In this document: piece by piece, positions 26,295 through 30,455 of the stretch
How the letters are laid out: each line of letters opens with the position of its first letter
Position numbering within the stretch: position 1 is the first letter of the stretch
DNA from: Candidatus Azambacteria bacterium
GTDB taxonomy: Bacteria; Patescibacteriota; Minisyncoccia; GWC2-36-17; WO2-46-25
Direction of reading: 5' to 3'
Length of the DNA: 33,634 bases
Assembly: GCA_016200965.1 (NCBI GenBank)
Contig: JACQDT010000024.1
Location: 1 to 33,634 of the forward strand
Notes under the pieces: generated by a model
What the model saw: the letters and a program-made list of their open reading frames with translations, nothing else
What the model was told of the DNA's origin: nothing
The model's database searches: none
Position numbers and translations under genes: made by a program

Positions 26295-27308
26295 TTATAG
26301 TAATAATCCTTGTTTATCCTTGTCGTGGTAAGGAATGCCGAGGTGTTCGTAGGCGTGTTTGGTCGCGATTCTTCCTTTCGGGCTTCGGGAAAGAAAACCG
26401 ATTTGCAGAAGATATGGCTCGTAGACGTCTTCTATGGTCTCCACTTCTTCGGAAGTGGATGCCGCGACGGATTTGAGCCCTACCGGCCCGCCACCGTATT
26501 TGGTGATGATCGCCTCAAGAATGCGAACGTCGGTTGTTTCAAGACCGATTGCGTCAACCTCTAGCACCGCTAGCGCTTTTTGAGCGACAGCACGCGTGAC
26601 GGGGGTCATATTATGAACCTGGGCGTAATCGCGCACACGTTTTAAAATCCTGTTTGCCACGCGTGGCGTGAAGCGCGAAGCCCGCGCGATGGTTTTCACG
26701 GCGTCGTCGTTGACACGCGCTTTCAAAAGCGCCGCCGACCGCCGGATGATGCGCTCTATTTCCTCTTCCCGGTAAAAATCAAGCCGGTGGGTTGCGCCGA
26801 ACCGGGAACGGAACGGAGAAGAAAGTAGTCCCGCGCGCGTGGTGGCGGCGATGATGGTAAAGCGGGGGAGATGGAGCTGGATCGTTTTTGCGGAAGGTCC
26901 TTTGCCCAAAATAATATCAAGCGTACTTGATTCCATCGCGGGGTAGAGCATTTCTTCCACCACTTTATGGATGCGGTGCGCCTCATCGATAAAAAGCACG
27001 CCGCCTTCTTCCATGTTGGTTAAGATGGCAGCAAGGTCACCCGCTTTTTCAATGGCGGGACCGGAAGTAACTTTCATAGTTGTTCCCATTTCTCTTCCGA
27101 CAAGATGGGCAAGCGTGGTTTTTCCTAACCCCGCGGGGCCGTATAACAGGACGTGCTCGATCGGTTCGCCCCGCTTTTGGGCGGCCTCAATGAGGATACG
27201 GAGGTTGTTCTTTATCTTTTCCTGTCCGATATACTCATCCCAACGCGAAGGTCTGAGCGCTAAGTCGAGCGTTACATCGTCTTTTTTAAGCACATCCCCG
27301 CTTGACAT
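26295..27308 (-). CDS. ruvB: Holliday junction branch migration ATPase RuvB
   Basis: LRPSRWDEYIGQEKIKNNL; Walker A LLYGPAGLGKTTLAHLV; LFIDEAHRI. Confidence 0.97.
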   Translation of the reverse strand: MSSGDVLKKDDVTLDLALRPSRWDEYIGQEKIKNNLRILIEAAQKRGEPIEHVLLYGPAGLGKTTLAHLVGREMGTTMKVTSGPAIEKAGDLAAILTNMEEGGVLFIDEAHRIHKVVEEMLYPAMESSTLDIILGKGPSAKTIQLHLPRFTIIAATTRAGLLSSPFRSRFGATHRLDFYREEEIERIIRRSAALLKARVNDDAVKTIARASRFTPRVANRILKRVRDYAQVHNMTPVTRAVAQKALAVLEVDAIGLETTDVRILEAIITKYGGGPVGLKSVAASTSEEVETIEDVYEPYLLQIGFLSRSPKGRIATKHAYEHLGIPYHDKDKQGLLL

Positions 27309-27474: not shown

Positions 27475-27503
27475 TTGACAAAATATAAACATTTTGTTAT
27501 ATT
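27475..27503 (+). promoter_or_regulatory. near-consensus sigma70 promoter of the structured RNA
   Basis: TTGACA (27475-27480), exactly 17 nt, TATATT (27498-27503). Confidence 0.75.
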
Positions 27504-27509
27504 TACGCA

Positions 27510-27682
27510 GTTCATAAAAAAACCCACCAACCTGTAGGCAATTAAGGTTTCCATGCCTTAATATGGGAATACATCTCAGTTTCGGGTAGTTTGGTTCCGA
27601 CTAGTCTACTCCTCGGATGTATTCTCTCCCTCTGACCTTGAGCCAGAGTTCCTTGCCTACAGGTTCGTGGGTTTTTGCTTTT
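27510..27682 (+). ncRNA. structured small RNA candidate, 6S-like architecture
   Basis: Closing stem 27521-27541/27653-27673 (20 of 21 paired); apical stem 27568-27575/27616-27623; side hairpins 27542-27547/27556-27561 and 27630-27634/27644-27648; T-rich end; no convincing ORF. Confidence 0.7.
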
Positions 27683-27697
27683 TAGTCAAGCGCGCGA

Positions 27698-29365
27698 CTA
27701 TCCGGCAACCGCCTCAACTTCTTCAACGGTGGTGATCCCCCCCAGCGCTTTCATAAAACCATCCTGTTTTATGGACACCATTCCTTTGCGTTGCGCCATC
27801 TCCCGCAATTGCGACTGGATCGGGCTTGATACGATGACCTTTTCCGACTCCTCGTCCACACGGAACATCTCATACAGGCCCACCCTCCCTTTATATCCGG
27901 TGTTGTTGCACAGTTTGCATCCGGAGGGCCGCGCAATAGTTGTCTGATCATCAACGCGGGGAGGAGGGATTCTGACAGGAAGATCCGCGAACGCCAGTTT
28001 GAATTTCGCAAGCTCCTCTTTTGTAAGAGGGCTTTTTTGCGAGCAGTGTTCGCATACTCTGCGGACCAGCCGCTGAGCGATGAGCAGATTTACCGCCGGC
28101 GCGATGATGGAAGGGCTTAACTTCATGTCAATGAGCCGCAGTATGGCGCTTGGCGCATCATTCGTATGTAGTGTAGAAAAAACAAGATGACCCGTCAAGG
28201 CGGCGTGCAGAGCGATATCCGCCGTTTCCATGTCGCGGATTTCCCCGACCAAGATGACATCCGGGTCTTGGCGCAAAATGGAGCGCAGGCCGGATGAAAA
28301 GCCGTACCCGCCCGCCGGATTGACCTGGCTCTGCGAGATTCCCTCCACGTGATATTCAATGGGGTCTTCAATGGTGATGATTTTTACCTCGGATGTGTTG
28401 ATTTTTTTCAAAAACGCGTAGAGCGTCGTTGTTTTTCCCGATCCCGTCGGTCCGGTCACGAGGATAAGGCCGTTGGGACGCTTCAATTCCTCTTTCACCA
28501 CCTCAAGGTCATAGTCCAGAATGCCAAGTTTTTCAAGCGAAATGGCGATGGTCTTCGGATTGAGAATTCTCATCACGAGCGATTCTCCGTTGGGGCCGGG
28601 AAGCACCGAAGTGCGCACCTCGATTGATTTGTTTTGCGATACAATGGAGAATCTGCCGTCTTGCGGCGCATCCACGACGTTGAGCTTCATTTTGGAGAGC
28701 AGTTTGATGCGGCTCGCAAGCAAGGCATACATTTTTTTATCCAGCGATGCGACTTCCTGCAGAACGCCGTCAATGCGGAAACGTATGGTAGTACGATCCT
28801 CCTGCGGCTCCACGTGTACGTCGGAGCTGTCCAGGGAGAGCGATCCCGCAATGAGCAGTTCAAGCACCGCGGTGGCGTTTTTGAGCGCGGCGCGGAGATA
28901 CACGTCTTTGAAATCGTCCACGTAGTGTATTTCTTTTTGGAGCTTTTCAAGATTTTCCGGAGTAATTTCAATGACCCCCGTTACATCTTCTTTTTCTTTG
29001 GGGAGGAGGGAATAAAATCCCCACGCTTTCTCTAGGCCGTGCTGAGACACCAGAAAGAGGTCCACGATAAGACCCTTGTTTTTCATGTTTTCAACCGCAA
29101 GCATCGTGTGCGGGTCCTTCGGATTTTTTACCGCGACTTTCAGATTTGAGCCGAGTTTTTGTATCACGGCGAGACGAGAGCGCCTGGCACTTTCTTCATC
29201 CATGAAAGTGAGCGTTTCCATGTTGATCGTTTGTTTGGAAAGGTCTATATAGGGAATACCGACTTTTTCCGCAAGGCGCTGGGCGGCGTCCTCTTCTTCC
29301 TTTTTACGGAGCTCGTCGAACTTTTCTCTCTGCTTTTTTTCCTCAAATGAGTGCTCGGTAGACAT
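27698..29365 (-). CDS. pilB: type II secretion / type IV pilus assembly ATPase (GspE/PilB family)
   Basis: Walker A LVTGPTGSGKTTTLYAFL; Asp/His boxes; C-terminal CEHC...CKLC zinc-binding motif. ATG 29365 (MSTEHSFEEKK) preferred; the ORF-track extension to 29650 overlaps the PLD gene. Confidence 0.93.
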   Translation of the reverse strand: MSTEHSFEEKKQREKFDELRKKEEEDAAQRLAEKVGIPYIDLSKQTINMETLTFMDEESARRSRLAVIQKLGSNLKVAVKNPKDPHTMLAVENMKNKGLIVDLFLVSQHGLEKAWGFYSLLPKEKEDVTGVIEITPENLEKLQKEIHYVDDFKDVYLRAALKNATAVLELLIAGSLSLDSSDVHVEPQEDRTTIRFRIDGVLQEVASLDKKMYALLASRIKLLSKMKLNVVDAPQDGRFSIVSQNKSIEVRTSVLPGPNGESLVMRILNPKTIAISLEKLGILDYDLEVVKEELKRPNGLILVTGPTGSGKTTTLYAFLKKINTSEVKIITIEDPIEYHVEGISQSQVNPAGGYGFSSGLRSILRQDPDVILVGEIRDMETADIALHAALTGHLVFSTLHTNDAPSAILRLIDMKLSPSIIAPAVNLLIAQRLVRRVCEHCSQKSPLTKEELAKFKLAFADLPVRIPPPRVDDQTTIARPSGCKLCNNTGYKGRVGLYEMFRVDEESEKVIVSSPIQSQLREMAQRKGMVSIKQDGFMKALGGITTVEEVEAVAG

Positions 29366-29420
29366 AACAATGATGCCTTTATCATACAGCCAAGCGCAAA
29401 AAACGCAAAACCCACGCAAT

Positions 29421-30455
29421 TTATACCAGCGACTGAAAAACGGAAATGAGCGGCGCGAGCAGATAATCAAACCATGTTTTTTTGTGCATAGAGGGGTCAA
29501 ACACCACGCAATTTTGTTTCCATGCGCCGATGATTCCGCCGAGTTCCCGCACCATTTGTTTATCTCGGAAGAATATGCCGGCTTCCACGTTATAACCGAA
29601 AGAAAGCGGATCAATGTTTTGCGAGCCGACCGCCCCTTCCGTATCGTCAATCAGCATCGCTTTTGCGTGGTTCATGTTTTTGTGCAGATAAAACACCACG
29701 CCCATCCGCTGGAGCTTGAGCACATAAAAATAATTGACTCGGTTGAAAATCCAATGGTCGGTGCGTCTGGGCACCAAAATACTCACGAGCGCGCCTCGCA
29801 ATACCGCCTGATGGAGCGCGGCAAACAGCCATCGGCGCGGCGCGAAATACGGCGTCACAATAACGACGCTTTTTTGCGCGCTTGCCAGTTTTTCCTGATA
29901 GCGCTTTTTAAGCAGAAGGTCTCCGCTGCTTTGCCGATGCTGTAAAAACCACATCCGCGTTTTTTTGAAAATGTTTTTTTTATGATAATACGCAAGAATG
30001 TTCGGGTCTTTCCCTCCGCATATCCGATAGTTTTTTGCAAAAGAACGGACAATGCTTTTTACCATGCGGCCGGTGAAGCGAACCTGCAAATCGTTCCATT
30101 TTTGGAACAGCTTATGAATGTTCACGCCGCCCAGAAATGCCGTTTTCTCATCCACCACCAATACTTTCTTATGCATGCGCCGAAGCCAATAGCTGAAAAA
30201 CAATACCTCCGCTCCCGCCTTCTTTATTTTTTCAATTGTCTTGGAGTCCAGCTCCTGGCTCCCAAAAGAATCCACAATGATCTTAACCGCAATCCCTTCC
30301 CTCGCTTTTTGCGCCAATAGTTCAAAAAAATTATATTTATCGGTGTTGTCGATGAATATATACATTTCAAGGAAAATTGATACGCGCGCGCCAGAAATCG
30401 CTTCAAGCATCGCCCCCCATGCTTTTTCCGAAGTGGTATAGAAGGTGTAGTTCAT
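29421..30455 (-). CDS. phospholipase D-family protein (cardiolipin synthase-like)
   Basis: Two HKD motifs: HKKVLVVDEKTAFLGGVN and HAKAMLIDDTEGAVGSQNID. Confidence 0.9.
   Translation of the reverse strand: MNYTFYTTSEKAWGAMLEAISGARVSIFLEMYIFIDNTDKYNFFELLAQKAREGIAVKIIVDSFGSQELDSKTIEKIKKAGAEVLFFSYWLRRMHKKVLVVDEKTAFLGGVNIHKLFQKWNDLQVRFTGRMVKSIVRSFAKNYRICGGKDPNILAYYHKKNIFKKTRMWFLQHRQSSGDLLLKKRYQEKLASAQKSVVIVTPYFAPRRWLFAALHQAVLRGALVSILVPRRTDHWIFNRVNYFYVLKLQRMGVVFYLHKNMNHAKAMLIDDTEGAVGSQNIDPLSFGYNVEAGIFFRDKQMVRELGGIIGAWKQNCVVFDPSMHKKTWFDYLLAPLISVFQSLV

Follow-up and report, generated by a model that had tools for sequence, protein, structure and literature searches.

A candidate housekeeping RNA gene between ruvB and pilB belongs to an RNA family of Patescibacteria that is absent from Rfam

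The window analysed here is a stretch of 33,634 nucleotides from a Candidatus Azambacteria bacterium (contig JACQDT010000024.1). Between two genes of the minus strand it carries a structured RNA gene, which lies on the plus strand at 27510 to 27683. Upstream and divergent is ruvB (26295 to 27308, minus strand; Pfam RuvB_N and RuvB_C), and downstream and convergent is pilB, which encodes the type IV pilus ATPase (27698 to 29650, minus strand; Pfam T2SSE). Both assignments also draw on conserved synteny. The RNA is transcribed away from ruvB and toward the pilB end. The longest pilB frame has a TTG start and overlaps a phospholipase D-like frame (29421 to 30455) by approximately 230 nt. The real start of pilB is therefore probably internal to this frame.

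A sigma-70-type promoter, TTGACA-N17-TATATT, occupies 27475 to 27503 on the plus strand. Its TTGACA (27475 to 27480) and TATATT (27498 to 27503) are separated by a 17-nt spacer, and the RNA begins approximately 7 nt further on. Promoters of the same class precede most homologous loci. A promoter score of at least 11 (maximum 12.5) is found upstream of 64% of 132 RNA loci versus 0.27% of shuffles, and the majority of the promoters at these loci have the exact TTGACA and N17. This near-consensus sequence suggests strong, stable transcription of the RNA. In three loci (L023, L054 and L056) the consensus promoter is 67 to 101 nt ahead of the closing stem and the leader has an extra GC-rich hairpin.

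The RNA is about 165 to 175 nt long when its 5' end is placed by the promoter and its 3' end by a U tract. The segment 27510 to 27683 (plus strand) folds with a minimum free energy of -77.8 kcal/mol, compared with -45.96 +/- 4.39 for shuffles (z -7.25, n=200), and none of the 200 shuffles folds as well. Together with the promoter scores at the 132 loci, this bears out a preliminary description of the locus as a structured RNA gene that stands alone and has a promoter of its own.

The closing stem (P1) has its 5' strand at 27518 to 27541, with the strongly conserved junction-side portion CUGUAGGCAA, and its 3' strand at 27653 to 27676 (UUGCCUACAGGUUCGUGGGUUUUU). Positions 27518 to 27540 pair with 27654 to 27676 in 22 pairs and one mismatch, which agrees with the long closing stem described earlier; a further pair, 27541/27653, comes from the consensus model. 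Inside P1 are a side hairpin P2 (27541 to 27562; UUAAGG...CCUUAA), an arm P3 (27565 to 27626), and a second side hairpin P4 (27630 to 27648; CUCUG...CAGAG), all on the plus strand. The arm consists of a basal stem, an internal loop (CUCAGUUU on one side, CUCGG on the other), and an apical stem (27584 to 27611, plus strand) that is capped at 27596 to 27599 by the UNCG-type tetraloop UCCG. P2 and P4 are the small hairpins that had been placed one on each side of a central bubble, and both covary. The central region of this form of the RNA, which we call the class form, is a four-way junction with two covarying hairpins. The apical arm was also recognised at the outset but its parts were assigned differently: the supposed 8-bp apical stem AAUACAUC/GAUGUAUU forms the base of the arm, and the tip is made by GGGUAG/CUACUC and UUGGU/ACUAG, which had been read as a continuation of that stem.

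Apart from the genome of the window, a BLASTN search of 98 genomes recovered the RNA in three relatives; one belongs to the same family and two to different families. In the alignment of these first four sequences, 19 of 51 pairs show two-sided compensation. A covariance model built from the four sequences (R1) matches 193 of 293 genomes of the class (Parcubacteria / Ca. Paceibacteria), mostly with one match per genome. A refined model (R2), built on 35 sequences, together with examination of the ruvB locus, added 5, 3, 40, and 11 genomes missed by R1. By these three approaches the RNA is present in about 252 of the 293 class genomes; E-values of the model searches rest on a short calibration. 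Among the remaining class genomes, four loci (L199, L200, L208 and L212) show an RNA at the corresponding position that is recognisably alike but has diverged further. Of 30 genomes in which the RNA was not detected, eight likewise gave no RuvB match at E<=1e-40, which would fit joint loss or divergence of ruvB and the RNA in these eight; three belong to one family (G194, G238 and G262) and the others are G178, G212, G173, G059 and G276. Scanning named genomes for the pattern returned 22 matches, 21 of them of Parcubacteria type including Ca. Yanofskybacteria, Azambacteria, and Paceibacterota. The single match in Fulvivirga was taken as chance.

In an alignment of 103 class sequences, which was fitted to the model and in which three rows are antisense matches, 51 of 53 base pairs have two-sided changes and 90% of cells pair. 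None of 500 shuffles reaches the observed covariation scores, and slid controls are far below as well. The result is the same when 35 sequences are aligned with MAFFT. In the 103 sequences the cells of P2 and P4 are 83% paired, with two-sided changes in all of their pairs. Conservation is highest in three parts: on the junction side of P1 (CUGUAGGCAA/UUGCCUACAG), at the tip of the arm (UUUGGNUNCGNCUGG), and in CUCCUCGG. A lack of conservation or covariation had been named as grounds for abandoning the initial proposal; the RNA is conserved and heavily covarying in more than 200 genomes.

The gene neighbourhood is conserved as well. In 85 of 90 loci ruvB is upstream and pilB downstream, both on the strand opposite to the RNA, and two of the five exceptions are loci at contig ends. 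This synteny emerges although the covariance models contain no gene information. The best reading of the locus is a single-copy housekeeping RNA gene of a new family.

R2 also matches seven genomes outside the class. In three of these (L115, L120 and L121) ruvB is near the match, and in one of them pilB is too. In L122, L124 and L125 the RNA is reduced to approximately 110 nt, without P2 and P4, and adjoins vanW (Pfam). A covariance model of the reduced forms (R3) matches 36 of 389 genomes of the phylum, many of the matches adjoining vanW and clpP. The reduced form is widespread across the phylum's other lineages, and the prevalence figures outside the class are minimum values. It shows strong covariation and has promoters above chance. 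Closing stem and arm are retained, together with an unpaired strand of 10 invariant nt. An invariant 13-nt stretch within CACGACAAGCAUGG is opposite a short strand, and the two sides of the internal loop are unequal (about 10 nt versus 1). Because R3 finds the class genome G079 at the exact R2 site and R2 in turn finds reduced forms, the two forms are likely homologous members of one superfamily. One genome (G605) has two tandem copies of the reduced RNA (L125, 1501 to 1610 and 1286 to 1395, minus strand).

No Rfam 15 family matches the RNA of the window, 20 class homologs, or eight further loci including out-of-class homologs. Loose thresholds gave, for the window, the homologs and the reduced forms, chance-level matches below the gathering cut-off. 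The RNA family is absent from Rfam and previously unlisted, which agrees with an undescribed CPR RNA family, an alternative that had been allowed for. The models proposed for checking, those of 6S, SRP, and tmRNA, do not match the RNA.

6S RNA is a regulator of the transcription enzyme; it binds the sigma-70 RNA polymerase holoenzyme and serves as the template for pRNA. The preliminary description saw its architecture here, and the size and the layout of closing stem, junction, and arm do hold. A 6S RNA is defined as about 160 to 200 nt with closing and apical stems around a central region (PMC8876501), and the new RNA has this size and layout. The definition also includes a relatively unstructured central bubble, and here both sides of the bubble are folded into hairpins. 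The 6S model RF00013 matches neither the window nor the 20 class homologs (E<=1) nor the eight further loci. Membership of the Rfam 6S family was rejected on these two grounds.

The distribution of RF00013 itself is also relevant. RNAs of the RF00013 type were found in 24 of 245 genomes of the phylum, four of them over the curated cut-off, and in none of the searched genomes of the window's class. With permissive settings RF00013 gave no match in 28 genomes (21 of the class and seven others that bear the new RNA), and control genomes were positive. No second 6S RNA was thus found in the tested genomes bearing the new RNA, as would be expected if the new RNA fills the 6S place. In the other direction, R2 matches none of the 24 RF00013-bearing genomes, the R3 match list does not overlap with them, and neither R2 nor R3 matches the Patescibacteria 6S loci at E<=10. 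The non-overlap has roughly p 0.07 outside the class and 0.009 with the class genomes, ignoring phylogeny and with both models missing many genomes. The pattern is weakly significant and would fit two RNAs filling one place. Twelve loci (L128 to L139) are RF00013 RNAs of other Patescibacteria lineages, four of them over the curated cut-off. The first ten (L128 to L137), viewed with up to 1.5 kb on each side, are without the ruvB, pilB, yebC, and ruvC of the window.

Our best single guess, which we hold tentatively and at somewhat less than even confidence, is that the RNA functions like 6S or Ms1 through putative RNA polymerase binding without belonging to Rfam 6S. The guess is based on the size and layout of the RNA, the strength of its promoters, its near-universal presence in the class, and the non-overlap with RF00013. 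RNA polymerase-binding RNAs outside the 6S family are described, namely Ms1 (PMC4191392, PMC9130861) and CoRP (PMC11077062), and these show that a lineage in which 6S is not recognised can have a different RNA of this kind (PMC9130861, PMC11077062). The new RNA would be a decoy of the 6S/Ms1/CoRP type that is bound by RNA polymerase. Its long stem and its arm would imitate promoter DNA flanking a melted centre, and in this way the RNA would tune transcription in cells that are slow or starved. In the layout of closing stem, central region, and apical arm, the half of the closing stem that adjoins the central region is the conserved one. With a 6S function, short pRNAs complementary to CUGUAGGCAAUUAAG would be expected from the junction. 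Against such a function are the two conserved hairpins in place of an open bubble in the class, the lopsided internal loop of the reduced form, the failure of Rfam 6S to match any tested homolog, the failure of R2 and R3 to match the Patescibacteria 6S loci, and the weak significance of the RF00013 non-overlap.

A rival that we rate about as highly, also short of an even chance, is a new housekeeping RNA that does not work through RNA polymerase but, for instance, as the scaffold of a small RNP or as a ribosome- or translation-associated RNA. In the most novel version, again at less than even odds, the RNA would be nearly universal in the Patescibacteria/CPR, with a large four-helix form in the Parcubacteria class and a small form with the invariant 13-nt stretch in other lineages; it would be non-homologous to known RNAs and have a new function other than that of 6S. 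Recognition would be through the junction, the internal loop, and the UNCG-capped arm. The tightness of the four-way junction, the conserved hairpins, the capped arm, and the conserved nucleotides of the internal loop all suit such a role, as does the lack of a match to any Rfam family. The invariant 13-nt stretch of the reduced form resembles a recognition site. However, no partner protein or target is known, and among the few near-universal bacterial RNAs 6S is the obvious unfilled place.

The fixed site between ruvB and pilB might suggest a trans-acting regulator of the adjoining genes for the type IV pilus or DNA uptake and recombination. This is improbable: the RNA is directed away from ruvB and toward the end of a pilB gene on the opposite strand, the reduced form adjoins vanW and clpP instead, and what is conserved in the class form is structure and not an unpaired seed. 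More improbable still is a mere bidirectional terminator or inverted repeat between convergent units. The U tract UUUUUGCUUUUU 3' of the stem (27672 to 27683, plus strand) is a putative terminator, and in the window A7 and U5 flank the closing stem and could end transcripts on both strands. A bidirectional terminator that also serves pilB, as the preliminary description supposed, is thus possible in the window itself. The tract is not kept generally: a U-run (>=4 T in 25 nt) follows the RNA in 45% of homologs, a minority, versus 34% in upstream control sequence. A terminator also does not explain internal arms and side hairpins that are conserved in sequence with covariation, or the constant orientation of an RNA driven by its promoter.

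A very diverged SRP RNA is largely refuted and highly unlikely: SRP RNA is also missing, in that RF00169 was undetected in 31 Patescibacteria genomes, but the Rfam SRP models give no match, the arm is without the CAGG/AGCA symmetric-loop signature, and G114, a complete one-contig genome of the class, carries the new RNA (378012 to 378177; the genome of loci L245 to L276) with no SRP RNA found and no Ffh detected by tblastn below E 1 (this one genome, with an E. coli Ffh query). In G114 or in these Patescibacteria the SRP pathway may have disappeared or may no longer be recognisable. Two other identities were rejected from the same genome, where the tmRNA (340913 to 341261, found by aragorn and by Rfam) is away from the new RNA, as is an RNase P signature at about 285619.

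Patescibacteria make up a very large part of bacterial diversity and have tiny genomes. A literature search, within the library used, on 6S or structured RNAs in CPR, Parcubacteria, or Patescibacteria found nothing relevant. The RNA is likely important to these cells, as it is kept in most genomes of the class with the same neighbours and strong promoters and is absent from Rfam. If it is their 6S equivalent, it would show global transcription control in minimal, host-dependent bacteria; if not, it would be a new kind of housekeeping RNA. In either case the covariance models provide direct targets for experimental work in co-cultures.

Several known RNAs invite comparison. The small SRP RNA (RF00169) is a housekeeping RNA that is abundant and has a long capped arm; the new RNA has such an arm too, but the SRP loop signature is absent. 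Like 6S RNA (RF00013; ssrS, bsrA) it is a single-copy RNA of this size class with a closing stem, central region, apical arm, and its own promoter. Free 6S-1 RNA is known to carry hairpins on its central region (PMC8876501). In the new RNA, unlike 6S, the central region is a covarying four-way junction, and the gene adjoins ruvB and pilB whereas 6S adjoins ygfA. It has no common sequence with the RF00013-type RNAs of other Patescibacteria. Ms1 of the Actinobacteria has a 6S-like shape, was found where 6S is not recognised, and was traced by synteny (PMC9130861, PMC11077062). For Ms1 and CoRP the sequence comparison consists of the Rfam scan alone. RNA polymerase binding is shown for both and predicted here, and they occur in another phylum with other neighbours; what the new RNA shares with Ms1 and with CoRP of Corynebacterium is that each is a structured RNA specific to its lineage.
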